IMG/VR virus record: IMGVR_UViG_3300032011_002753
Location: 1 to 40,849 of that record
Reading direction: 5' to 3' (one strand)
Source of the DNA: a virus
DNA: 40,849 nucleotides
Position 1 is the stretch's first letter. Every line of letters begins with the position of its first letter. A program made the position numbers and the translations under genes. Of this stretch, positions 18,695 to 36,641 are shown piece by piece. Below the pieces are notes generated by a model. That model ran no database searches. It was given only the letters and a program-made list of their open reading frames with translations, and was not told the origin of the DNA.

Positions 18695-21600
18695 ATGAAC
18701 GAACTTTCGCAATATTTAGTAGAACAAGTACTGTTAGAGGATGAGAATCCTATTAAAAAAACAGTAGTAGTATTTGTGGGTAGGTTTCAACCTATGCATA
18801 AAGGACATTATGGTACTTATCAACATCTTGTCAAAAAGTTCGGTAAGAATAATGTGTACATAGGTACATCTGATAAAGTACAATTACCTAAATCACCTTT
18901 TAACTTCAAAGAGAAGGTGAAAATTGCAACTTCAATGTTTGGAATCCCCAAATCCAAAATATTCAAAGTTAAAAATCCATACAAACCAACAGAAATCCTT
19001 AAAAAGTTTGATGAAAAAACAACTGCATTCATAACAGTAGTTGGAATGAAGGATAAGGATAGATTAAAACCAGATAGTGGTAAATACTTTCAATCATACA
19101 AAGGAGAACCATCTGTGGGATATCGAGATGGTGGGTACGTTTATGCTGCACCCCAAAGTGGTGGTGGTATAAGTGGAACTGAAACTCGTAATGGGTTATC
19201 AGTTGGTTCGGACGAACAAAAACAAAATTTCTTTAAGAAAAGAGCATATGGTAAGTTCAACGCCACAATATTCAAAATGATTACCGATAAACTTAACGAA
19301 GATTTAGAAGTTAAGAAGGAATGGATATATGATTCATTAACTGAAATATCATCAACAACTATTGGTGGAGGTGATGTGGATGATGGACCAAATATCGTTT
19401 ATCCATCTGCAGATTTATTCAAAAAGATGTCAATCGAAAGAGCTGCACAAATCGGATTTGATGTTGTAGGTGATATTCTTGGTGGAGAGGAATCAATTGA
19501 TAAAACAGATTACAGAGTATATGGAGATGGACCAGTAGGAGCAGTATCATTCTTTCCAGCTGGTATCATTGGTACTATGACCCCAAACAACCAAGTAGAT
19601 ATCTACTCAAGAGGTGCATATTCACAATGGTTTAAACATGCAACAAGAGCAGCATCACTTGTAGGATATGAATTAGTTAGAGGATTGGGTATAAATAAAG
19701 ATGATGCTCAAAAATCTGGTGATGATGCAAAAGGGGCTAAGGAGTTAGAGAAAGAATTCGAACAAAACCTACAAGAAAACATAGTACTACCTGTTAAAGT
19801 TGGTGATACCATTATGACTGGTAGATTTAAGAACAAAAAGACAGTTGTAAAAACTATTGGTAAGGATGAACATGGAATGCCAACTATCAATGGTAGAAAA
19901 GTAGTAACTTTTCGACTGATGAAAGAAGGATTTATTGCAGAAATCGCAGGAACAGAAATAGATTGCCCTAAGTGTAATCATTCATGGGAGTTAGAATCGG
20001 ATGATGATGAAAAATACCTTTGTCATAATTGTGGATATGATTCACAACAACAAGAATACGATTTTGATGCATTTGATTCGTGGCAAGAAAAAAATGGAAT
20101 GTTGGATGAGAGAGGTAAACTAAGACCATCTCAAAAACTTGCTAGAAAAAGAGCAATGGCTGGAAAGGCCAGACAGATTGCAAGAAAAAGAAAAAGAACA
20201 ATGATGAGAAGAAAATCATTTGATAAACTAAAAAAGATTGCATACAAACAAGCATATAGACAAGTTTATGATGAATTCCATCAAGATTTATTTCCAGGTA
20301 TCAAGAAATCAGATTTATCTATCAAACAATCGAAAGTAATTCATAAAAATGTAGTAAGAAAAAAAGGTAGAGTAATGAAACGTGCAAAATTCAAATTCTT
20401 ACCTGCATTAAGGGCCAAAGAAGCCGAAAAGTTTGGACAAAAGGAAGATTCAAATCCAAAGGCACATCCACAAGGTAGTAAGAAAATATCAGGTCGTACA
20501 ACTGTAATGGATATGTTGGATGTAATTTCTCATAAAGAATTTGGACCTGATTTTGAAAAACTATCAGTTTCTCAAAAGAAAAAAGTAATTAAGATTGCAA
20601 AAAAACATAAATTTGTAACTGAGAATAAAAAGATGATATCAGAAGGTGGTGCGTATGGACACATGTCTCACCCATTTGATACTGATATCAATTTAACCTT
20701 TGGACAACTTAAAGATATCGTAAATCGTGCACTCGAAGGTTCACTTGAATTCACTAGAGAGAAAACTGATGGTCAAGCATTGGCAATTTCATGGAGAGAT
20801 GGAAGATTAGTTGCAGCAAGAAACAAAGGACACCTAAAAAACAAAGGTGAGAACGCTTTAGATATCAAAGGTGTATCAGATAAGTTTCAAGGTAGGGGTG
20901 GATTGAGTGATGCATACAATTATGCGATGAAAGACCTTTCAACTGCAATCAAATCTCTTTCAGATAAACAAAGAGATAAGATTTTTAAACAAGGTGCATG
21001 TTTTATGAACCTTGAAGTAATATATCCAACATCAGTTAACGTAATTCCTTATGGACAAGCGTTACTTGTGTTCCATGGCACTATGGAATTCAATGAAGAA
21101 GGTGTTGCGATTGGAGAGAATGGTGAAGCAGCAAGAATATTAGCTGGTATGATTAAACAAGTCAACAAAGATGTACAAGATAATTACACAATTCAAGGAC
21201 CACCTATCGTAAAATTACCAAAATCACAAGATTTATCAAAAAAACGTAGTAAATACTCATCACAGATATCTAAATTACAAAAAGAGTTTGGATTAAAGGA
21301 TACAGATGGTGTTGCAAACTACCATCAAGCGTGGTGGGAACAATGGGTTGATAAGAATTCTCCATCAACACTCGATAACAAAACCAAAATGGGGTTAGTT
21401 AAGAGATGGGCGTTCTTTGATAAGAAGTTTAGATTAGATAAAAAGAACATTACTGATGAAAAAACATTAGAATGGGCTAAAAAGATAGATAAAGATGACC
21501 AAAAGAAGATTGGTAAGAAGAACTTAATGAAGTTCGAACAGATATTCTTAGGTTTAGGTGCTGAAGTATTAGAATTTACTTCATCTGCCCTTACTGTTAA

Positions 21601-21841
21601 TCCTGATAAGGCAGTTCGTGATATGAAAAAACGAATTGATAAAACAATCAAAGATGTTAAGAAATCAGCTGACCCTAAAAAGATAGAAAAACTAAAATTA
21701 GAGTTAGGTAGATTGAATTCTATTGGTGGGACTAAAAAAATAGTTCCAAATGAAGGTATAGTATTTCTATATAATGGTAAAACATTCAAACTTACAGGCA
21801 CATTTGCATCAGTAAACCAAATACTTGGTATTTTCTTCTAA
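18695..21841 (+). CDS. Giant fusion: HxGH nucleotidyltransferase + zinc ribbon + basic segment + KxDG ligase-like nucleotidyltransferase
   Basis: 1048 residues. (a) Residues 22-200 are an NMN-adenylyltransferase/cytidylyltransferase-like domain: G-R-F-Q-P-M-H-K-G-H (29-38) and I-S-G-T-E-T-R (159-165). (b) Residues ~215-420 are unassigned. (c) A zinc ribbon has Cys at 424, 427, 443 and 446. (d) Residues ~475-640 are very Lys/Arg-rich. (e) Residues ~650-1048 carry K-T-D-G (690-693), N-L-E-V-I-Y-P (772-778), E-G-I-V-F (1020-1024) and K-T-F-K-L (1029-1033), the order of motifs I, III, IV and V in DNA/RNA ligases and capping enzymes. The N terminus (Y-L-V-E at 7-10) and sites F-I-A-E (413-416) and I-S-E-G (648-651) resemble T4 prohead-protease sites. 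It may be a packaged, processed enzyme for NAD/nucleotide metabolism or nucleic-acid end joining. Activity is unproven. Confidence 0.75.
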   Translation: MNELSQYLVEQVLLEDENPIKKTVVVFVGRFQPMHKGHYGTYQHLVKKFGKNNVYIGTSDKVQLPKSPFNFKEKVKIATSMFGIPKSKIFKVKNPYKPTEILKKFDEKTTAFITVVGMKDKDRLKPDSGKYFQSYKGEPSVGYRDGGYVYAAPQSGGGISGTETRNGLSVGSDEQKQNFFKKRAYGKFNATIFKMITDKLNEDLEVKKEWIYDSLTEISSTTIGGGDVDDGPNIVYPSADLFKKMSIERAAQIGFDVVGDILGGEESIDKTDYRVYGDGPVGAVSFFPAGIIGTMTPNNQVDIYSRGAYSQWFKHATRAASLVGYELVRGLGINKDDAQKSGDDAKGAKELEKEFEQNLQENIVLPVKVGDTIMTGRFKNKKTVVKTIGKDEHGMPTINGRKVVTFRLMKEGFIAEIAGTEIDCPKCNHSWELESDDDEKYLCHNCGYDSQQQEYDFDAFDSWQEKNGMLDERGKLRPSQKLARKRAMAGKARQIARKRKRTMMRRKSFDKLKKIAYKQAYRQVYDEFHQDLFPGIKKSDLSIKQSKVIHKNVVRKKGRVMKRAKFKFLPALRAKEAEKFGQKEDSNPKAHPQGSKKISGRTTVMDMLDVISHKEFGPDFEKLSVSQKKKVIKIAKKHKFVTENKKMISEGGAYGHMSHPFDTDINLTFGQLKDIVNRALEGSLEFTREKTDGQALAISWRDGRLVAARNKGHLKNKGENALDIKGVSDKFQGRGGLSDAYNYAMKDLSTAIKSLSDKQRDKIFKQGACFMNLEVIYPTSVNVIPYGQALLVFHGTMEFNEEGVAIGENGEAARILAGMIKQVNKDVQDNYTIQGPPIVKLPKSQDLSKKRSKYSSQISKLQKEFGLKDTDGVANYHQAWWEQWVDKNSPSTLDNKTKMGLVKRWAFFDKKFRLDKKNITDEKTLEWAKKIDKDDQKKIGKKNLMKFEQIFLGLGAEVLEFTSSALTVNPDKAVRDMKKRIDKTIKDVKKSADPKKIEKLKLELGRLNSIGGTKKIVPNEGIVFLYNGKTFKLTGTFASVNQILGIFF

Positions 21842-24874: not shown

Positions 24875-25282
24875 ATGGAAGATATAACAAAAGCACTTTA
24901 TTCAAATTTCGTAAATACAATCAGAGAAACCGCTGATGAAATCGAAGAGTATGATTGTGAGAATGAACAAGATGTAAAAGAGATTGTTGAGTTCTTAAAA
25001 GCATACAAACCAGAGGTCAACGAGGCTGAATATCAAGGTAGAAAAGTAAAATTGGGTAAACCAATGCAAGGTGATGTTAAGAAGTTTAAAGTTTACGTTA
25101 AAAACCCACAAGGTAACGTAGTAAAAGTAAACTTCGGTCATGGAGGTAGTTCTGCAAAAGGAAAAACTATGAAAATTAGAAAATCTAATCCTAATGCAAG
25201 AAAAAACTTTAGAGCAAGACACAATTGTGATAATCCAGGACCAAGACACAAAGCTAGATACTGGTCTTGTAGAAAGTGGTAA
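24875..25282 (+). CDS. Virion-type protein with basic Cys-containing C-terminal module (135 aa)
   Basis: The N-terminal ~48 residues are acidic and helical. A V-N-E-A site follows at about 48-51. The C-terminal ~85 residues are strongly basic: F-K-V-Y-V-K-N-P-Q-G-N-V-V-K-V-N-F-G, then R-A-R-H-N-C-D-N-P-G-P and A-R-Y-W-S-C-R-K-W. I recall this C-terminal module from many T4-like marine phages next to head genes, but know no proven function. The two Cys and several His could bind metal. Its position between terminase and portal supports a head or packaging role. The Ile/Val-x-Glu site before the basic module could be a prohead-protease cut releasing it, which is inference. Confidence 0.6.
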   Translation: MEDITKALYSNFVNTIRETADEIEEYDCENEQDVKEIVEFLKAYKPEVNEAEYQGRKVKLGKPMQGDVKKFKVYVKNPQGNVVKVNFGHGGSSAKGKTMKIRKSNPNARKNFRARHNCDNPGPRHKARYWSCRKW

Positions 25283-28004: not shown

Positions 28005-28440
28005 GTATAAAGATTTTATTGCTGAACTTATAAAAGAAGTAGAAGAAGAGTTAGAAGAACAAACTACTACTGCTAATGTTGATGGGTATCAAACTCCTTA
28101 TGCTTTTTCTGGTAAGGGAAAGAAAGATAGGAGAAAAAAGATTGCCCAACAAATGGGATATAAGATTGTAGGTGAAGCAAAAATTAAAACACCAGTTAAT
28201 CGTTGGTTGGCATTGAAGAATGATGAAACTCGTTCTCCAAATCAAAAATTAGCTGTGGGTTTAAAAGAACTTAAATACCAATTGGCTGAAGTTGAAAAGT
28301 TCTTCAACTGGTATAATAAGATTAAAACGATGAATGAACTTGATAAAAATAATTATTGGAAGAGGACTCATCGTCATATTTATAATGTGAAGGAAAGATT
28401 AATTAATATAGCCAATAGTATAAAGGAGTTAGACCAATGA
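27991..28440 (+). CDS. Small head-region protein with CTS-like N terminus (149 aa)
   Basis: The N terminus is a short helix, K-Y-K-D-F-I-A-E-L-I-K-E-V-E-E-E. The F-I-A-E element is the same as in the capsid-targeting sequence of T4 internal proteins, which the prohead protease cuts after Glu; here Leu follows rather than Ala. Next come T-T-T-A-N-V-D-G-Y-Q-T-P-Y-A-F (25-39) and a Lys-rich segment, then helices to the end. I recall the 'G-Y-x-T-P-x-A-F' element from other phage head-region proteins. A role in the prohead core or as a packaged protein fits the position next to gp21. Overlaps: 14 bases upstream, 4 downstream (ATGA). Confidence 0.58.
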   Translation: MLESKYKDFIAELIKEVEEELEEQTTTANVDGYQTPYAFSGKGKKDRRKKIAQQMGYKIVGEAKIKTPVNRWLALKNDETRSPNQKLAVGLKELKYQLAEVEKFFNWYNKIKTMNELDKNNYWKRTHRHIYNVKERLINIANSIKELDQ

Positions 28441-28715: not shown

Positions 28716-28904
28716 ATGACAAAGGAGAGATTGTTAGATATTATTAATGAGGAGGTTGATAACGTAAAATTTGGTATCAACCATTTTCTTATTAAAGAGG
28801 AAATCACTAACGAAGATGAAAAACAGATTCGTGAATTGATTAGACAAGAAGTATCTGCAATATTTTTTGATTTGTTTAAGAAAAGAAAAACTTGGGGAGC
28901 ATAA
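28716..28904 (+). CDS. Small helical protein (62 aa) before the prohead protease
   Basis: Starts 6 bases after the preceding stop and shares its last base with the protease ATG. It is acidic and helical: R-L-L-D-I-I-N-E-E near the start, ending F-F-D-L-F-K-K-R-K-T-W-G-A. The N-terminal helix with I-I-N-E resembles other N termini in this block. No family is recognised. The tight coupling supports it as a real head-core accessory gene. Confidence 0.5.
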   Translation: MTKERLLDIINEEVDNVKFGINHFLIKEEITNEDEKQIRELIRQEVSAIFFDLFKKRKTWGA

Positions 28905-29485
28905 TGGGACAATTACTAATAGAAACTAGATTATTTGAGGGAAGAGTTAACGAAGATTCCGAAGGAAGAACTATCGTTAAGGGTGTTCTACAACGTGCAG
29001 AGGCTCCAAATCAAAACGAAAGAGTATATCCAAAGTCAATTCTAATGAGAGAAGCAAAAAAATATGAAACTCTTATTAAAGAAAGAAGAGCGTTGGGTGA
29101 ATTAGACCATCCAGATTCTTCTGTAATAAACTTGAAGAATGTATCTCACAACGTTAGAGAAATTCATTGGGAAGGAAACGATTTAGTAGGTACAGTAGAA
29201 ATCCTACCAACTCCTTCTGGTAATATATTAAAAGAATTATTAAAAGCAAATATTCTTCTAGGAATATCTTCAAGAGGTATGGGTTCAGTAGAACCTATCG
29301 GTAAAGGAAGAGTACAAGTAGGAGAAGATTTTGAATTACTTGGGTGGGATTTTGTATCCAATCCATCTACACATGGTGCATTTATGACACCTGTTAACGA
29401 ATCTAAACAAGTTATATCTGAGGTTTGTAATGAATATTGTAAAGCTCAAGATTTAATGAGAGAAATAATTACGGAGTTAAATTAA
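28904..29485 (+). CDS. Prohead core protease (T4 gp21-like)
   Basis: 193 residues from ATG 28904, preceded by GGGGAG. A TTG at 28892 would add four residues and is not needed. Family features: N-terminal strand with E-T-R-L-F-E-G-R-V-N-E; N-Q-N-E-R-V-Y-P; the catalytic-type His in L-G-E-L-D-H-P (His 69); the nucleophile in L-G-I-S-S-R-G-M-G-S (Ser 122 or 123); and W-D-F-V-S-N-P-S (148-155). T4 gp21 cleaves scaffold, capsid and internal proteins after hydrophobic-x-Glu. The likely capsid site here is given under the capsid gene. The C-terminal V-N-E-S and I-S-E-V could be self-processing sites. It overlaps both neighbours by one base. Confidence 0.9.
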   Translation: MGQLLIETRLFEGRVNEDSEGRTIVKGVLQRAEAPNQNERVYPKSILMREAKKYETLIKERRALGELDHPDSSVINLKNVSHNVREIHWEGNDLVGTVEILPTPSGNILKELLKANILLGISSRGMGSVEPIGKGRVQVGEDFELLGWDFVSNPSTHGAFMTPVNESKQVISEVCNEYCKAQDLMREIITELN

Positions 29486-30678
29486 TGATACAACTAGGAC
29501 AAATAATAGGATTAAAACCAATTAACGAAGCAGAAGTATTTACTGCAACAAGTAAAGAAACTGGCACAACATCGGTATTTAAATCAAAAGCAGCAAGAGA
29601 CGCAGCTATTAAGGCTGGAACTCATGAAAAAAGAAAAGGTGATAAAGATGGTGCCGTACAAGAACCTGGTAAAAAAGATACTCCTAAAGTAAACATATTT
29701 AAAAAAGATAAAGAAGAACCTAAGAGAGATTCTGCCACCGATGCACAGATAGATGATGTTCAAAATAATATTGGTGATTTAGATGGTGATGAAATAAGAG
29801 ATTATGCAGAATCAGATATATTCCCATATCTTAAAGGAAAAGATTTGGAAATTGCAAAATCATTAGTAGGTGATATTGAAGATTCTGGCTCAGATTTTGT
29901 TAGAAGTGCGGATGTAAGAAAAGATTTAAAAGATTTATTTGATAAGAAAATGACTTTAGATTCTCCAAAAGAAGAACCTAAAAAAGATGATAGTAATGAT
30001 ATTTCACAACCTAACTCAGTAGAAGGAACTGGTCAAGCAGACCCTAAGGTTAACAAACAAGTTCGTAAGATAGCTGATAAAATGGGAATCTCATCAAAAA
30101 AATTAGGTAAAGAAGAATACGAAAAGAAAATGGCACAAGCTGCGGTTGAAGCCTTAACTGATTCTAACTTTCATACTGAGGCTAGATGGTTGGTTGCCGA
30201 TTTAGAAGGTAAACCAGAATTGAGAGAAAGACCAAACTATCCTAAGTTTGATGACCCTGATTATGAAAAGAAGATGGATGCAGTTAGAGAAAAATATGCA
30301 TCTCAATACGCTGATGATGTTGATGATGACGCAAGAAACTTAGGTATCGAGGCATCACAGGCTGCTGGATGGGGTGGTGCTACTGCGATGGAGTCCATAG
30401 TATTTGATTTAAAAATGAGTGGTTCACATAAATTGGCAAATAAAATATTAAAATCTTTCAAAGATGCACAACAAAAACAAGAAGGAAGAATCTCAATAGG
30501 AGATATGATGGAAGATGTAATCAATGAAGGACCATCTACTGAAGAAAAAAGAATTGCAATGTTGGCTGTTAGAAAACAAGCTAAATACAGAAGTGTAAGT
30601 TTAGAACAGGCAATACAAGACCAAATCAATGCTCTCGAAGATTTAAAAAGAGATGCAAAGAGAGGTAAAATAAAATAA
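29485..30678 (+). CDS. Head-region protein with two I-N-E sites (397 aa), unknown function
   Basis: Residues 1-15 end in K-P-I-N-E, followed by A, a strong match to a hydrophobic-x-Glu/Ala prohead-protease site. A second site, V-I-N-E-G, occurs near residue 347. Between them are a Lys/Asp/Glu-rich flexible part (about 40-180), a helical folded part (about 190-330) with the W-G-G-A-T-A-M-E-S loop, and a basic tail. No family is named. The N-terminal peptide may be a capsid-targeting sequence that is removed, as in T4 internal proteins. It lies directly downstream of the protease with TAATG coupling and ACGGAG upstream. Confidence 0.58.
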   Translation: MIQLGQIIGLKPINEAEVFTATSKETGTTSVFKSKAARDAAIKAGTHEKRKGDKDGAVQEPGKKDTPKVNIFKKDKEEPKRDSATDAQIDDVQNNIGDLDGDEIRDYAESDIFPYLKGKDLEIAKSLVGDIEDSGSDFVRSADVRKDLKDLFDKKMTLDSPKEEPKKDDSNDISQPNSVEGTGQADPKVNKQVRKIADKMGISSKKLGKEEYEKKMAQAAVEALTDSNFHTEARWLVADLEGKPELRERPNYPKFDDPDYEKKMDAVREKYASQYADDVDDDARNLGIEASQAAGWGGATAMESIVFDLKMSGSHKLANKILKSFKDAQQKQEGRISIGDMMEDVINEGPSTEEKRIAMLAVRKQAKYRSVSLEQAIQDQINALEDLKRDAKRGKIK

Positions 30679-30687
30679 GGAGAGAAC

Positions 30688-31446
30688 ATGAAACTAAGAG
30701 ATATACTTAAAGAATCCGAAGATAGAGGATTAACTAGTGAAGTTAAAAAACATTTCCTAGAAATCGTTTCTACATACAACAAATATCACGAATCAATGGA
30801 TAGAAAATCTGATATCATTGAAGTTGCTGAAACTTTAGGTGGTATCACAGAAGCTGCTAGAGAACTTGCTCTAAGAGAAGCTGATGATTGGTTTGATAAA
30901 CATACAGTAAAAAGAAACATGAGTGAACTAACTAAGTTAGGTTCTCAATTTGATAAAGTTGCCAAAGAGGCTAGAAACTTAGACCAAAGAATGCATGGTC
31001 TATATGAGGATATGGGTAATATCCTTTCAAGATACTACAAAATCGGTGAGATAACCGAAGATGAAATGAAACAACGTTTAGGTATGAATGAATCTAAATC
31101 AGATTGTGGATGTGGATGTGGTGGAACAACAGTAGGTGGATGTAACGAATCTTTAAACGAAGAACCAGTTGCAGTATCAATGAGAAATGATGATGGTTCT
31201 ATTACAACTACAATTAAAGAAGTTGCCGATTTAAACGAAGAAGAATCTAAACTATATGAGTTTGGATTAAAAGTTGAAAAGGCTTTAATGAACGAAAAAA
31301 ATTGTCCAACTGACCCTGGCAAATGGGCAGCATCAAAAGCTGCTGCTAAAAAGAAGTTTGATGTTTACCCTTCTGCATATGCTAATGGATGGGCAGCAAA
31401 AAACTACAAAGGAAAAGGTGGCGGTTGGAGAAAATGTAAAGGATAA
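30688..31446 (+). CDS. Head-region protein with Cys/Gly cluster and basic C-terminal module (252 aa)
   Basis: Residues 1-135 are helical: M-K-L-R-D-I-L-K-E-S at the start, A-E-T-L-G-G-I-T-E-A-A and D-D-W-F-D-K later. Residues 139-152 form a compact cluster D-C-G-C-G-C-G-G ... G-G-C, a possible metal site. N-E sites (M-N-E-S at 133-136, S-L-N-E-E at 155-159) flank it. The last ~45 residues, P-G-K-W-A-A-S-K-A-A-A-K-K-K-F-D-V-Y-P-S followed by A-Y-A-N-G-W-A-A, belong to a small basic module I recall from phage and large-virus proteins. A packaged or DNA-contacting role is plausible. It has an excellent AAGGAG site 6 bases before the ATG. Confidence 0.58.
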   Translation: MKLRDILKESEDRGLTSEVKKHFLEIVSTYNKYHESMDRKSDIIEVAETLGGITEAARELALREADDWFDKHTVKRNMSELTKLGSQFDKVAKEARNLDQRMHGLYEDMGNILSRYYKIGEITEDEMKQRLGMNESKSDCGCGCGGTTVGGCNESLNEEPVAVSMRNDDGSITTTIKEVADLNEEESKLYEFGLKVEKALMNEKNCPTDPGKWAASKAAAKKKFDVYPSAYANGWAAKNYKGKGGGWRKCKG

Positions 31447-31452
31447 CCAATC

Positions 31453-33330
31453 ATGCCAAAGTACAACTACAAAAAAGATGCACTTACCGATTATTTCAAA
31501 GGTAAACTATCCGCAAAAGAATTGGATAAGATTGCCAGAGATGATTTTAAGAGTGGTATTGCAACTAAAAAAGAATTATCTAACTTTTTATCAAACAAAT
31601 TTACTCAAGATGTAATGAGTGATACCTATGGTATTCCTGCAGGTACGTTAGTAAAACGAGTAAGAGGGTTAATGAAATTTGCTGAAGGTGTAAATGAAAT
31701 GGACCCACACTATCCAGTCGTATCAAAAGATGATGAAGAAGAAGTAACTGAATCTAAATTCGCTAAGAAACCTGAGGTAACTCCAAAACAATTGTTGAAA
31801 ATACAAAATGATGTTAGAAAGGTTAACAGAAAGATAAAAGTTTATATCAGTAAACATCCTGTCACTAAAGGTCAATTAGATATAGAATTAGGACATGGGC
31901 ATGATAATGATGATGAAATACATAAGATTTATGCTATATTGAAAAAACATACTGGTAGTTGGAGAACTGGTTCTATGTTTAACGAATCAGTAAATGAAGG
32001 TAAAGAACCAGAAGTGATTTCTCAACTTAGAGATATCGTAAAAAGAAAACAAAACAAAAAAATCAAAGACCCAAAGAGTGGTAAAATGATGAGAGTTGAT
32101 TTGATGTCAGCATCAGTAGTAACTCAGGTCTATGATAAAATTAACAAATCTAACAAAGATAAATTTGGTAAACTTTCTTTACCTAACATGGTAAATCTAG
32201 CATATAAAGTAGCGAAACCTAGAATGTCAGATTCAGTAAACGAAAGAATAAATCCAAAGTTTTACGATGCAAGAGTTCAATATATAGACCCTAAGAGTAA
32301 GAAAAAGTTTGTTGGTGATGTAGTTAGATATGATAATGGTGAATACAAAGTTAACTTAGGTAAAGATGGTAGATTTGAAAAATACATCTTAGCAAAAGAA
32401 AAAGATTTGAAAATTGTATCTAAATCCAAGAAAAGAACATACGAATCAGTAAACGAAGGTATTTCTGTATTTGATGAAAGACACTTTGGTAAAAAGGGTA
32501 TAATCATTATGATTGATGATAATGGTAAAAAAGTATCTGCAATCTTCAAAGATAAAAAGAACGCTGATAAGTTCAATAGAAACAAACCATCAGATATCAA
32601 AAAACTTTTAGATTTAGCAAAGAAAACTAAATACCCAAAAGCAATCGATGAATCAGTAAACGAAGCATATGTTGTATTGTACTCACCAAAAAAAGGAGTG
32701 AAACCAGTAACAACTGCAGCTTATAAAGATAAGAAAGATGCTGAAAAGTGGGCAAAGGATTTGGGTGGTATCACAATGATAGTTAAAAAGAAAGTTAGAT
32801 ATATTGATGAAACTAAGGCACAAATCAATAAAATTAAAAAACAGGCTGGTAAGAAAGAAATAAAGTTCTACGATATATTATCTAATATTGAAAAAAAGTT
32901 AGGTAAAAACAAATATAGAGCCTTTCTAGTTAAATCCTTAAAAGATTTTAAAATCAATGGAAATCACTATGATTATAGAAGTAACGCAGCTGCAGAAGAA
33001 AAACTTTTCCAAGTATCTGAAGTTAACACGAATGAAGATTTAAGAAATTGGTTCAAATCTAAATGGGTAAACATTGGTAAAAAAGATAAAAGTGGAAAAC
33101 ATCCACCATGTGGTACGAGTGGTAACAAAAAAGGATATGCCAAATGTGTACCTGCTAAAAAGGCAGCATCTATGAGTAAAAAAGAAAAAGAATCTGCAAC
33201 TCGTAGAAAAAGAGCAGCACAAAACAAATCCAATAGAGGTGGTAAATCATCAGCTGGACAAGGTAAAAAACCTATAAATGTTTCTACCCATACTGGTGGA
33301 AGAAAAAGTGGGACCGGAAAAGGTTCATAG
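31453..33330 (+). CDS. Bead-like multidomain virion protein with four S-V-N-E linkers (625 aa)
   Basis: S-V-N-E occurs at residues 179-182, 261-264, 332-335 and 401-404, with a further G-V-N-E at 79-82. The distances between the four are 82, 71 and 69 residues. The intervening stretches look like separate small domains: an H-G-H-D-N-D-D-E-I-H-K-I-Y helical unit at ~147-160, a beta-rich unit at 265-331, and another at 336-400. The tail (about 510-625) has W-F-K-S-K-W-V-N-I-G-K-K-D-K-S-G-K-H-P-P and then a Lys/Arg/Ser run, matching a module I recall as DUF5872. It is probably a polyprotein-like head component cut by the gp21-like protease. It starts 6 bases after the preceding stop with AAAGGA. 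Confidence 0.65.
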   Translation: MPKYNYKKDALTDYFKGKLSAKELDKIARDDFKSGIATKKELSNFLSNKFTQDVMSDTYGIPAGTLVKRVRGLMKFAEGVNEMDPHYPVVSKDDEEEVTESKFAKKPEVTPKQLLKIQNDVRKVNRKIKVYISKHPVTKGQLDIELGHGHDNDDEIHKIYAILKKHTGSWRTGSMFNESVNEGKEPEVISQLRDIVKRKQNKKIKDPKSGKMMRVDLMSASVVTQVYDKINKSNKDKFGKLSLPNMVNLAYKVAKPRMSDSVNERINPKFYDARVQYIDPKSKKKFVGDVVRYDNGEYKVNLGKDGRFEKYILAKEKDLKIVSKSKKRTYESVNEGISVFDERHFGKKGIIIMIDDNGKKVSAIFKDKKNADKFNRNKPSDIKKLLDLAKKTKYPKAIDESVNEAYVVLYSPKKGVKPVTTAAYKDKKDAEKWAKDLGGITMIVKKKVRYIDETKAQINKIKKQAGKKEIKFYDILSNIEKKLGKNKYRAFLVKSLKDFKINGNHYDYRSNAAAEEKLFQVSEVNTNEDLRNWFKSKWVNIGKKDKSGKHPPCGTSGNKKGYAKCVPAKKAASMSKKEKESATRRKRAAQNKSNRGGKSSAGQGKKPINVSTHTGGRKSGTGKGS

Positions 33331-33365: not shown

Positions 33366-33635
33366 ATGACTAAAAAGAAATCAATTGTCTCTGTTCAAGT
33401 AAGAAAAGGAGATATTCAAAAGGCACTAAAAATATTTAAAAGAAGAGTAAGTGAGAGTGGACATTTATTCGAAGTAAGAAAAAGACAAGAATTTACGAAA
33501 CCAACTACAATTCGTAGAAAACAAAAACAACAAGCCATCAGAGAAAATCAAAGACAAGTAATATTGGATAAGATTGAAGATGGAAACACAACCCTAAGAT
33601 TACAAACTAAAAAAAGGAAAAAAGGTAAAAGATAG
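33366..33635 (+). CDS. rpsU: Phage-encoded ribosomal protein bS21
   Basis: 89 residues. Positions 8-60 follow bacterial bS21: V-S-V-Q-V-R-K-G-D-I-Q-K-A-L-K-I-F-K-R-R, then S-G-H-L-F-E-V-R-K-R, and the hallmark F-T-K-P-T-T-I-R-R-K (43-52). A ~30-residue Lys/Arg-rich tail extends beyond the usual ~70. bS21 binds the small subunit near the 3' end of 16S rRNA and the anti-Shine-Dalgarno. It has its own promoter-like element, and a terminator follows. GGAG is only one base before the ATG, an unusually tight spacing. Phage bS21 copies are known from marine and large phages. It may replace the host protein in ribosomes during late infection, which is inference. Confidence 0.85.
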   Translation: MTKKKSIVSVQVRKGDIQKALKIFKRRVSESGHLFEVRKRQEFTKPTTIRRKQKQQAIRENQRQVILDKIEDGNTTLRLQTKKRKKGKR

Positions 33636-33797: not shown

Positions 33798-35003
33798 ATG
33801 GCAAATTCAAAACTATTGAAAGAAGCTATTGCTGATGCTAAAGCCGTTAGAGAAACTGCAATCGCCAATGCAAAAATCGCATTGGAAGAAGCATTTGCTC
33901 CTAAACTACAATCAATCTTATCTAAGAAACTTCAAGCAGAAATGAATGAAGAAGAAGAGGAAGATGATGTAGATGAGAGTGTAGATTCAAGTAAAATTGG
34001 AGCTGGTGATAACAAAGAACCTGAGTACGATGAGGCTCATACTGAGTTAGACCCAGAAACAACTAAACAATCTAGCGAAGTTGGTGCAGAGGATAGCAAC
34101 CTTGACAAAGTCGATGACCTTAAAGAAGGTGAAGAAGAAGATGAAGAATCAAAAGAAGAAGTAAAAGAAGCTGGAGAACCTGACGCTGATAAAGGCGGAG
34201 TTCCTGCGGATGTTACTAATGCTGATGATGCATCTATCTCTGAATCTGAAGAAGAGGAAGTTGATGAAACAGTTGAGGAAACTGAAATTTCTGAAGAAGA
34301 ACATTCTGAGGAAGAAGAAGTTGACGAAGAACTAGACCTTGAAGCTATCATTAGAGAGTTAGAATCTGATATGGAAGAAGAACTCGATGATGAAGAAGAA
34401 GGTGAAGTTGAAGATATCGCAACAGACGTAGTTGACGGACATGAGGAAGAACACCACGAAGGTGAAGAGCACGAAGAAGATGCTCCATCTGATATGGAAG
34501 AAGATTCTCACGAAGAAGATGAAGTTGAAGAAGATATCGACTTAGACGAAATTCTAAGAGAAATGGGATATGGTGAAGAAGAAGAAGTTGAAGAAGGTGA
34601 CCACGATGAAGTTGAAGCAAGTGAGGAGTTAGAAGAAACAAAATCTGAATTAAAAGAGGCTATTTCTACTATCAAATCTTTGAAGAAAACTATCAACGAG
34701 GTGAATCTTTTGAATGCTAAACTATTATTCGCAAACAAATTATTCCGTTCTTATAACTTGACTAACGAACAAAAGGTTAAAGTTGTAGAAACTCTTGACA
34801 GAACAAACTCTGTAAGAGAGGTGAAATTGGTGTTTAGTACACTTGCAGAATCATTGAAATTCAATGGAAACAGTAAGAAACAAAAGCTATCAGAAGGAAT
34901 CGCTTCTAAGGCTCAACCATCTACTGCTCCAAAGAAAGAAATTATCGAAGAGAGTACAAACGAAATGGCTAACAGATTTAAAAAGTTAGCAAACATTATT
35001 TAA
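33798..35003 (+). CDS. Prohead scaffold (T4 gp22-like), strongly acidic
   Basis: 401 residues. The N terminus is an Ala/Lys-rich helix (L-L-K-E-A-I-A-D-A-K-A-V-R-E-T-A-I) ending near M-N-E. Residues ~50-280 are dominated by Glu and Asp runs. The last ~120 residues form a coiled coil (E-E-L-E-E-T-K-S-E-L-K-E-A) plus a basic helical end containing N-E-M-A-N-R-F-K-K-L. Composition, size and place directly before the capsid gene match T4 gp22, the core protein degraded by gp21 during maturation. It has a weak ribosome-binding site (AAAGG) and starts a unit bracketed by two terminators. Homology is inferred mainly from synteny and composition. Confidence 0.75.
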   Translation: MANSKLLKEAIADAKAVRETAIANAKIALEEAFAPKLQSILSKKLQAEMNEEEEEDDVDESVDSSKIGAGDNKEPEYDEAHTELDPETTKQSSEVGAEDSNLDKVDDLKEGEEEDEESKEEVKEAGEPDADKGGVPADVTNADDASISESEEEEVDETVEETEISEEEHSEEEEVDEELDLEAIIRELESDMEEELDDEEEGEVEDIATDVVDGHEEEHHEGEEHEEDAPSDMEEDSHEEDEVEEDIDLDEILREMGYGEEEEVEEGDHDEVEASEELEETKSELKEAISTIKSLKKTINEVNLLNAKLLFANKLFRSYNLTNEQKVKVVETLDRTNSVREVKLVFSTLAESLKFNGNSKKQKLSEGIASKAQPSTAPKKEIIEESTNEMANRFKKLANII

Positions 35004-35030: not shown

Positions 35031-36641
35031 ATGGCAAATTTTGATTTATCCAAACTGACAGAAGGAAAGAACCCACAATCAGTAATGCTCGAGGAAACAA
35101 GAGGATTAAAGAGTAAATGGGAACAAACTGGACTTCTTGAAGGTTTGAAAGAAAGAGACCAACATCAGATGTCGGTTCTTTTAGAAAACCAAGCAAAACA
35201 ATTGCTTGATGAAGCTAACTCTACATCCGCTGGAACAGGAAACGAAGAGTGGAGTGGTGTAGCTTTACCATTGGTAAGACGTATCTTTGGTGAAATCAGT
35301 GCGAAGGAATTCGTTTCTGTACAACCGATGAACTTACCTTCAGGTCTAATCTTTTATTTAGACTTTAAATATAACAACGGTCAATTCGGTGGAAGTAACT
35401 ATTCAGGTTCTTCTATCTTTGGTGGTGACGGTTCGGACTTAGGTTCAACTAATGTAGCTAAAAACGGTCTTTATGGAGACGGTAGATTTGGTTACACACA
35501 ACCAGATGACAATAAATTCGTAGCAAAAGCAAACGTAACTGTATCGACTGCTTCTGTATATGATGATTTGAACTACGATGGTAGATATACTGCATCTGTT
35601 GCAGCTGGAGATATCTTCAAAGTAGAAATTGCAAAATCTGATATCGATTCATCAGCTGATGATGACGCAATCAGAAGTTTTACTTTAACAACTAACTCTG
35701 GTTCATTTATCGATGAAAACCTAGGTGCTTTCAACTACAAGAGTGGAGATAACTATTACTTCTTCTTCTCTGGTTCTGAAAAAGTACAAGATGTTGAAGT
35801 AAACTTTAGTAAAGTAAACTCTGCTGGTGATAGAGGTGATTTTGAAGATAGAGATGCTATCTTAAACACTTCTGGTTCTGCAGGAACTGCTTTAGATATT
35901 CCAGAAATCGACCTTGAGTTGAAATCTGAGGCTATCGTTGCTAAGACTAGAAAACTAAAAGCAGTATGGACTCCTGAGTTAGCTCAAGACCTTAATGCTT
36001 ACCACAGTATCGATGCTGAGGCTGAATTAACTTCTATGTTATCTGAGTACATCTCACTAGAGATTGACCTAGAAATCTTAGACTTGTTAAGAAGCAACGC
36101 ATTGACTTCTGAGTACTGGTCTGTAAATATCGGTGAAGAATGGAATGGTTCAGCTTGGAGTGCAGTATCAACAGGTGTTGCATACCAAAAGAACACATGG
36201 TTCCAGACTCTTGGTACTAAACTTAACAAAGTTTCTAACAAGATTCACCAATTAACACTAAGAGGTGGAGCTAACTTTATCGTTGCTTCTCCTGATGTAT
36301 GTACTATCCTAGAATCTATTCCAGCTTTCTCTGTGAACGCTGATAAAGATGCTGGACAGTTTGCAGCTGGTGTTTCAACTGTTGGTTCTTTGGCTAACAG
36401 ATACACAGTTTATAAGAATCCTTACCAAACTAATAACGAAATCCTTATGGGCTTCAAAGGTAGTAACTTCTTAGAGACTGGTGCTGTATATGCTCCATAT
36501 GTACCACTTATCATGACTCCATTAGTATATGACCCACAAAACTTCACTCCAAGAAGAGGTGTGATGACAAGATATGCTAAGAAGATGGTAAGACCTGAGT
36601 TCTATGGTAAAGTTTATATCAAAGATATACAAAACGTATAA
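35031..36641 (+). CDS. Major capsid protein (T4 gp23-like)
   Basis: 536 residues. The N-terminal ~61 residues are a helical delta-like propeptide ending Q-L-L-D-E-A; cleavage after Glu 61 (hydrophobic-x-Glu/Ala) corresponds to the T4 gp23 cut after Glu 65. Then come L-V-R-R-I-F (81-86) and V-S-V-Q-P-M-N-L-P-S-G, matching M-V-R-R ... V-Q-P-M-N-S-P-T-G in T4 gp23. The middle (about 130-280) is an acidic, Ser/Gly-rich insertion-like domain. The C-terminal half contains A-V-W-T-P-E-L-A-Q-D-L, the I-S-L-E-I-D-L-E-I-L-D helix and P-Y-V-P-L near the end. Strong AAGGAG site. A strong terminator follows 25 bases after the stop. It forms hexamers of the head shell. Confidence 0.93.
   Translation: MANFDLSKLTEGKNPQSVMLEETRGLKSKWEQTGLLEGLKERDQHQMSVLLENQAKQLLDEANSTSAGTGNEEWSGVALPLVRRIFGEISAKEFVSVQPMNLPSGLIFYLDFKYNNGQFGGSNYSGSSIFGGDGSDLGSTNVAKNGLYGDGRFGYTQPDDNKFVAKANVTVSTASVYDDLNYDGRYTASVAAGDIFKVEIAKSDIDSSADDDAIRSFTLTTNSGSFIDENLGAFNYKSGDNYYFFFSGSEKVQDVEVNFSKVNSAGDRGDFEDRDAILNTSGSAGTALDIPEIDLELKSEAIVAKTRKLKAVWTPELAQDLNAYHSIDAEAELTSMLSEYISLEIDLEILDLLRSNALTSEYWSVNIGEEWNGSAWSAVSTGVAYQKNTWFQTLGTKLNKVSNKIHQLTLRGGANFIVASPDVCTILESIPAFSVNADKDAGQFAAGVSTVGSLANRYTVYKNPYQTNNEILMGFKGSNFLETGAVYAPYVPLIMTPLVYDPQNFTPRRGVMTRYAKKMVRPEFYGKVYIKDIQNV

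Follow-up and report, generated by a model that had tools for sequence, protein, structure and literature searches.

The question raised by this locus is why one viral gene should carry the same tetrapeptide, SVNE, four times between small domain-like segments of different kinds. From the sequence alone it had been proposed that such identical linkers mark either a polyprotein cut into peptides or a cassette that acquires domains when recombination takes place at the linker. The window analysed here is a whole stretch of 40,849 nucleotides (IMG/VR virus record IMGVR_UViG_3300032011_002753, positions 1 to 40,849), and the segments between the joints are called beads. We think it likely that the array is a chain of cargo proteins, cut at its joints by a gp21-type protease and shuffled by recombination at the same joints, with cleavage, packaging, delivery and the route of recombination being inferred. 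The two proposals are not alternatives, and one stretch of 12-16 bp seems to fulfil both roles.

Array gene and head operon

The open reading frame at 31453-33330 (plus strand, ORF listing) encodes a protein of 625 aa with a pI of 9.9. SVNE starts at residues 179, 261, 332 and 401, in agreement with the intervals of 82, 71 and 69 residues given by the sequence-only reading, and the Glu residues that it named at the joints (182, 264, 335 and 404) are found in the translation. Only 0.010 copies of SVNE are expected from the composition. Since the protein is Lys-rich, some tetrapeptide was present in four copies in 501 of 20,000 shuffles (2.5%), and therefore the repeat alone is moderately surprising; chance as the source of the four copies was ruled out by the relatives described below, not by this statistic, and it is the comparative data, rather than the repeat count, that make the case for an array compelling. 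Bead-against-bead BLASTP within the protein gave weak short matches only (best E 0.002 over 16 residues), which agrees with the view that no segment is a copy of another, and duplication of beads inside the protein was rejected because of this dissimilarity. The basic module described at the C-terminal end is present (27 K+R against 5 D+E, pI 10.8). Joints that had escaped that reading are VNE at residues 80-82, IDE at about 453 and TNE at 528, so that about eight dissimilar beads are connected by xNE-type joints, four of them SVNE (Table 1). No Pfam match above cut-off was obtained for the protein. The SVNE linkers are alike also as DNA, being nearly identical (TCAGTAAACGAA three times and TCAGTAAATGAA once), and no further exact copies of the four-linker DNA occur elsewhere in the window.

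Table 1. Features of the window with their positions, strand and basis of assignment (a slash within a motif marks a bead border or candidate cut position, here and in the text).
Feature	Position	Strand	Basis
Core-type carrier gene (position of T4 gp67/68), no insert here, 149 aa	27991..28440	+	Homologue comparison
Prohead protease, S77/gp21 type	28892..29485	+	Pfam PF03420 2.9e-26; PHROG head maturation protease 8e-49
Second bead-bearing gene, PINE/AEVF..., VINE/GPSTEEK...	29485..30678	+	Last bead recurs elsewhere or alone
Head-operon protein, four [LM]NE sites, MKLRDILKE leader, C-terminal basic module	30688..31446	+	Motifs
Bead-array (cassette polyprotein) gene, cleavage inferred	31453..33330	+	ORF listing, architecture, pI
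Bead 1, residues 1-82, C-terminal GVNE	31453..31698	+	L001 DNA identity stops exactly at 31698
Bead 2, residues 83-182, C-terminal NESVNE	31699..31998	+	Missing in L001
Linker 1, SVNE, TCAGTAAATGAA	31987..31998	+	Sequence
Bead 3, residues 183-264, helical	31999..32244	+	L039/L040 and AF2
Linker 2, SVNE, TCAGTAAACGAA	32233..32244	+	Sequence
Bead 4, residues 265-335, predicted five-stranded SH3/KOW-like barrel	32245..32457	+	L013 island, structure model
Linker 3, SVNE, TCAGTAAACGAA	32446..32457	+	Sequence
Bead 5, residues 336-404, predicted beta hairpin and helix	32458..32664	+	L011 island
Linker 4, SVNE, TCAGTAAACGAA	32653..32664	+	Sequence
Bead 6, residues 405-453, C-terminal YIDE	32665..32811	+	Piecewise relatives
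Bead 7, residues 454-528, C-terminal NTNE	32812..33036	+	Relatives match 453-521 as separate unit
Bead 8, residues 529-625, strongly basic C-terminal module	33037..33327	+	PHROG 23735, 7e-16
Acidic protein at scaffold (gp22) position, pI 4.1	33798..35003	+	Position, composition and pI only
Major capsid protein gp23	35031..36641	+	Pfam Gp23 (PF07068) 1.9e-77

The window belongs to the genome of a T4-type phage, with terminase (assigned by position and homologues), portal, S77 protease, S21, a scaffold-like protein and gp23, and the array gene sits in the head operon as the third gene after the S77 protease and upstream of the scaffold and capsid genes. This protease is presumed to be the processing enzyme of the array; VNE is found near both of its termini (28946-28954 and 29393-29401). 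The candidate maturation site QLLDE/A of gp23, at 35205-35213, stands where the maturation cut is expected in capsid precursors of the group and is kept in relatives (QLVTE/A in one). No database match was found for the acidic protein at the scaffold position. Linkage to the head genes and protease is observed also outside the window: the S77 protease is encoded in 12 of 12 large records tested, and head genes lie on the same fragment in 43 of 55 multi-linker loci. In some large records a second bead locus is far from the protease. Judged by protease and capsid protein, the nearest cultured relatives are Microcystis phage Mel-JY01 and Flavobacterium phage immuto (about 49-64% protein identity).

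The products of the neighbouring genes starting at 29485 and 30688 are abundant in [LIVM]NE. The last bead of the former (GPSTEEKRIAML...) follows xNE joints in other genes and also forms a lone gene of 65-71 aa; in a 276-kb relative it is found also at a second locus, more than 100 kb from the protease. Basic C-terminal modules preceded by xNE are present in 30688-31446 (MNEKNCPTDPGKW...) and in 24875-25282 (VNEAEYQGRKV...), the latter kind being known also from Pelagibacter and Flavobacterium phages. A ribosomal protein S21 homologue (33366-33635, Pfam 4e-13) lies inside the head operon, and in Mel-JY01 such a homologue is likewise near the protease. The gene at the array locus of Mel-JY01 had been taken by eye for an ADP-ribosyltransferase, which was dropped because neither Pfam nor PHROGs gave support. 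Further upstream, 18695-21841 encodes a 1048-aa protein with a nucleotidyltransferase-like N-terminus, whose Mel-JY01 counterpart is about 400 residues shorter, seemingly without the middle part that holds a possible zinc-ribbon stretch; this may be another gene that accepts inserts.

Exchange of beads at a joint conserved as DNA

A search of viral contigs with the array gave 79 loci. When the related genomes were searched for variable domain number between SVNE linkers, the number was found to vary, and the pattern that would have refuted the proposal, namely domains conserved and linkers not, was not seen among the relatives. The relatives match the array piecewise: residues 180-264 only (L039 and L040, 91%), 331-404 only (91-94%), 398-455 (L061, L073 and L074 match only 398/400-455, i.e., bead 6), or 1-82, 257-333 and 400-625. 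The same beads occur in relatives in different orders, in different genes or as stand-alone genes. For example, bead 1 is located behind an SVNE linker in L005 and L022, bead 2 is inserted into the gp68-position gene of L017, bead 5, the most widely shared inner bead, lies inside a different gene in L056, and bead 8 is in many relatives a gene of its own of about 114 aa with the leader MKLQxIIDEIFEETTNE. Splitting of 60 array proteins at the joints yielded 333 fragments in 114 groups, 25 of which have at least three members; these counts are approximate because single-linkage clustering chained some unrelated fragments. By this approximate clustering, bead 5 was found at 23 loci, where it has 19 different neighbours on its left side and 16 on its right. 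Beads were aligned separately; a whole-protein MAFFT alignment with all homologues misplaced many fragments.

The borders of the shared pieces fall on the joints. At the protein level, a linker is no more than 5 residues away from the HSP end in both proteins in 29% of cases (chance, 1%). In comparison with L001 (81-88% identical), DNA identity breaks at 31698 (the end of VNE 82), 32228, 32451 and 32657, the last three corresponding to linkers 2, 3 and 4. L011 shares an island from linker 3 to linker 4 (32443-32664) at 96.4% identity within a backbone of 72.4%, and L013 shares one at 32230-32461 at 94.4% within a backbone of 72.5%. Overall, beads of 94-99.6% identity were found inside backbones of 72-89%. 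For isolated DNA islands with identities of 85% or more, a linker marks the end in both genomes in 32% (0.1% at random). In 82 island pairs the match spans from linker to linker, with identities up to 99.6%. Not all of the pairs in these counts are independent, since some come from related contigs.

Gain and loss of single beads was also observed. The cleanest case is the pair L068 and L077, which are about 98% identical and differ by one in-frame stretch of exactly 240 nt (80 codons) bounded by a 19-bp direct linker repeat, GAATCAGTAAACGAAGGTA. Two other pairs differ by one bead each, in frame (207 nt for L042/L161 and 261 nt for L125/L087), and the junctions of all these differences carry a linker repeat of 16-19 bp. 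The proposed gain of domains at the linker is therefore shown directly by breakpoints in linkers, by presence or absence of single beads and by near-identical beads in less similar genomes.

Conservation of the joint as DNA extends over the relatives. TCAGTAAACGAA encodes SVNE at 103 of the 146 sites (71%) in 59 distinct arrays, while codon use predicts 8%, and the consensus of the joint is GAATCAGTAAACGAAG. Random linker pairs have 84% of codons in common, compared with 28-78% for the same residues elsewhere. It could be argued that this reflects only recent shared ancestry and codon bias, the DNA homology having no role, since the phages are related and AT-rich, with TCA, GTA and GAA being their most frequent codons in any case. 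This explanation was already disfavoured and we give it hardly any weight, because aligned linkers retain a codon identity of about 0.82 also next to beads that are only 15-45% identical and have a codon identity of 0.57-0.65, and because the Asn codon AAC is used in 151 of 181 SVNE (83%) but in 358 of 649 other xNE sites (55%; Fisher p 7e-13).

In a blind 16-mer scan of viral contigs, ESVNE was read in the longest frame in 113 of 118 among the matches listed, and 91 lay in ORFs with at least two linkers. The joint has one direction relative to the genes. This single orientation, the maintenance of the joint as DNA and the precise gain or loss of single beads would suit a dedicated cassette system as well, in which the 12-16 bp joint would be the target of some unknown recombinase or endonuclease, and beads would be moved in an integron-like manner. 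However, the conserved DNA is the coding motif E-S-V-N-E-[G/A] with no conserved extension beyond it, degenerate joints (SINE, SLNE and INE) are used in some exchanges, no enzyme has been identified (without a systematic integrase search), and the ordinary homology-driven recombination of T4-type phages is enough. We therefore regard a dedicated system as very unlikely; homologous recombination between short repeats explains the exchange most simply, and no dedicated enzyme was found or is needed.

The array was absent from the isolates of the phage collection. In cultured phages only basic C-terminal modules and one relative of bead 3 were found, the latter in Melnitz as a separate hypothetical protein whose surrounding genes have no annotated head function. 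No relatives were found in bacterial and archaeal genomes.

Carrier gene, leaders and nature of the beads

Beads are inserted also into the core-type carrier gene. In the window, which has no insert there, the insertion site is after VGE at about 28176/28177, and a blastn breakpoint in several relatives, at window position 28173/28174, matches it. In 63 distinct carrier homologues, the extra residues that separate the same conserved halves number 67-737 in 23 and fewer than 15 in 24. Inserted homologues usually read ...xNE/beads...xNE/AKxKRPVNRW, and uninserted sites read VNE, VSE, VGE, VDE, VTE, INE, LNE, ISE, LAE or IVE. Since P3 is hydrophobic, P1 is Glu and P2 is free, this is the pattern of a cut-site and not of a fixed linker.

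The earlier comparison of the joints with the hydrophobic-x-Glu sites of T4-type prohead proteases was borne out: the pattern recurs at the bead borders, in LDE/A of the capsid protein and in [VIL]xE of the carrier, with V instead of L/I at P3 of the joints. T4 gp21 cuts after L/I-x-E (PMC9026906), a rule that QLLDE/A of the capsid protein fits. In the carrier gene of this group, V at P3 is common. The array architecture, the xNE sites and a virus-encoded S77 protease, as a viral polyprotein would need, are present, while processing of the chain into separate products is inferred. The polyprotein reading is strongly supported by its context, namely the S77 protease, QLLDE/A of the capsid and the [VIL]xE site of the carrier, while cleavage is undemonstrated. 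We know of no proteomics or cleavage assay for any relative.

Stand-alone beads begin with leaders that are about 9-25 residues long and terminate with xNE or xE (MKLQDIIDEIFEETTNE/, MIKLHNLLNE/ and similar). In many cases the C-terminal bead, too, is encoded on its own, behind a leader such as MRLQDIIDEIFEETTNE/. T4 internal proteins have core-targeting leaders of 10-19 residues, which are cut off, and the short leaders of stand-alone beads resemble these capsid-targeting sequences; a targeting function is inferred from the likeness. The leader M[KR]Lxx[IL][IL]xE recurs on stand-alone bead genes of L005, L022, L031 and others, and could serve to predict more packaged proteins genome-wide.

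In AF2 models, bead 3 is a confident helical domain (pLDDT 85) with residues 78-82 at its linker end below 50, and beads 4 and 5 are two separately folded parts with linkers of low confidence. A fold search gave no match for bead 3, and for bead 4 it gave small SH3/Tudor/KOW barrels at E above 0.01. The flexibility predicted for the linkers is compatible with the main rival to our explanation, an uncut multidomain core or scaffold protein, whose joints would be flexible, easily recombining linkers and which would act whole or be digested and lost as core filler. The array gene is indeed located among core and scaffold genes, and in T4 the core proteins gp22, gp67 and gp68 are cleaved into fragments, most of which are lost from the head. 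A role as core filler leaves unexplained why folded, specific, basic beads are shared at up to 99.6% identity and why stand-alone bead genes with leaders exist, and mere linkers would leave unexplained the free middle position of [VIL]-x-E at the carrier joint. Uncut, or cut and lost, core material is therefore argued against and considered unlikely, without being excluded. Even if the chain is cut, retention of the beads in the head is not assured, because most core fragments of T4 leave it.

A pI above 9 was found in 74% of 91 bead families and in 15% of other window proteins. Pfam matches of beads are few and mostly weak: among ten proteins scanned, DUF3008 and RNase_J_C passed the cut-off, and Zeta_toxin, LPD5 and others stayed below it. 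Relatives of bead 5 have sub-threshold similarity to LPD5/LPD7 (best E 0.008), both known as polyvalent-protein domains, which is a possible clue to function. One distant array of 823 aa (L205:2564-5035) starts with a P-loop domain resembling Zeta toxin (Pfam E 6e-4, which is below cut-off; PHROG 5268, 2e-42), continues with beads joined at VNE and finishes with a basic module (PHROG 27331). These two similarities, together with the shuffled multidomain architecture, could point to a polyvalent protein, i.e., an injected effector whose fused domains act against host defences. We regard this as improbable, since the window protein has no Pfam domain above cut-off, and its beads are small, have protease-type sites between them and occur also alone or within core-type genes.

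Proposed route of the cargo and comparison with known systems

According to the cargo-chain explanation, the gene would encode a chain of small, mostly basic phage-head cargo proteins, each bead ending with a putative cleavage motif ([VIL]-x-E, mostly SVNE) of the gp21-type prohead protease that the phage itself encodes. The chain may be incorporated into the prohead core and cleaved at the joints as the head matures; the freed beads would remain with the DNA and probably reach the next host cell like T4 internal proteins. Because the DNA of the joints (GAATCAGTAAACGAAG) is nearly identical, homologous recombination between joints could delete, add or swap whole beads, within and across genes and phages, with frame and cut site kept intact. 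Cleavage by the S77 protease, location in the head and delivery to the host are inferred from knowledge of the family, and the recombination route and bead activities are inferences as well. Trading of beads apparently changes the protein cargo released inside the phage head, the release itself being inferred. More tentatively, a cassette economy of virion cargo may exist across a large group of uncultured T4-type phages, in which beads are traded via a 16-bp joint, recombination keeps protease site and DNA homology uniform, any bead fits any array or core-type gene with frame, packaging and release kept, and the cargo consists of host-takeover or anti-defence proteins with rapid turnover; we hold this to be possible, short of an even chance.

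If the explanation is true, sequence alone marks where the cargo of phage heads begins and ends, and tens of small, mostly unknown families from uncultured phages turn into candidates for packaging whose borders are exactly defined. It would also provide a clean example of a protein cut-site coinciding with a DNA exchange point, show phages swapping single domains without breaking the chain, and represent an architecture for loading several proteins into one phage head.

In the literature searched, which covered few subscription journals, we found no earlier description of tandem arrays of exchangeable beads whose cut-site is the DNA exchange point. Integron gene cassettes are similar in their single orientation, short shared joint and gain or loss of single units, but the beads are in-frame domains, not genes, and no integrase or attC-like structure was identified. 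Ongoing shuffling of fragments between phages is also the subject of work on domain mosaicism of phage proteins (PMC10684548), whose examples include tail and receptor-binding proteins and in whose text a term search gave no protease, linker or internal virion protein. Polyvalent proteins, which Iyer et al. (2017) compared to viral polyproteins, are multidomain, mosaic and thought to be delivered with the genome; as far as the accessible portion of that article goes (PMC5512222), they differ in having embedded peptidase domains instead of a separate prohead protease, and other domain families, and a shared short joint is not described. In the giant phages phiKZ and SPN3US, the prohead protease (gp175 and gp245, respectively) cuts head and ejection proteins after x-x-E, and the likeness lies in several proteins being cut, with multiple cuts within one propeptide; the SPN3US motif is A-x-E, cuts chiefly remove propeptides, and shuffled bead arrays are not described in the part of the source available (PMC10052503).

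The T4 system (IPI, IPII, IPIII, Alt and gp22/gp67/gp68) is similar in the T4-type head operon, the S77 protease and the hydrophobic-x-Glu cut motif, and its internal head proteins have N-terminal leaders on stand-alone cargo genes, with cargo variable between phages. Unlike these separate genes with one leader each, the array holds its cargo as tandem beads in one chain or as inserts in core-type genes, its joints have V at P3 (L/I in T4) and mostly Asn at P2, and its cut-site is conserved as DNA and serves as the point of bead exchange. Each ingredient has a precedent in T4 internal proteins, prohead-protease processing, polyvalent proteins or domain mosaicism, and there is a substantial chance that the bead-array system deserves a name of its own.
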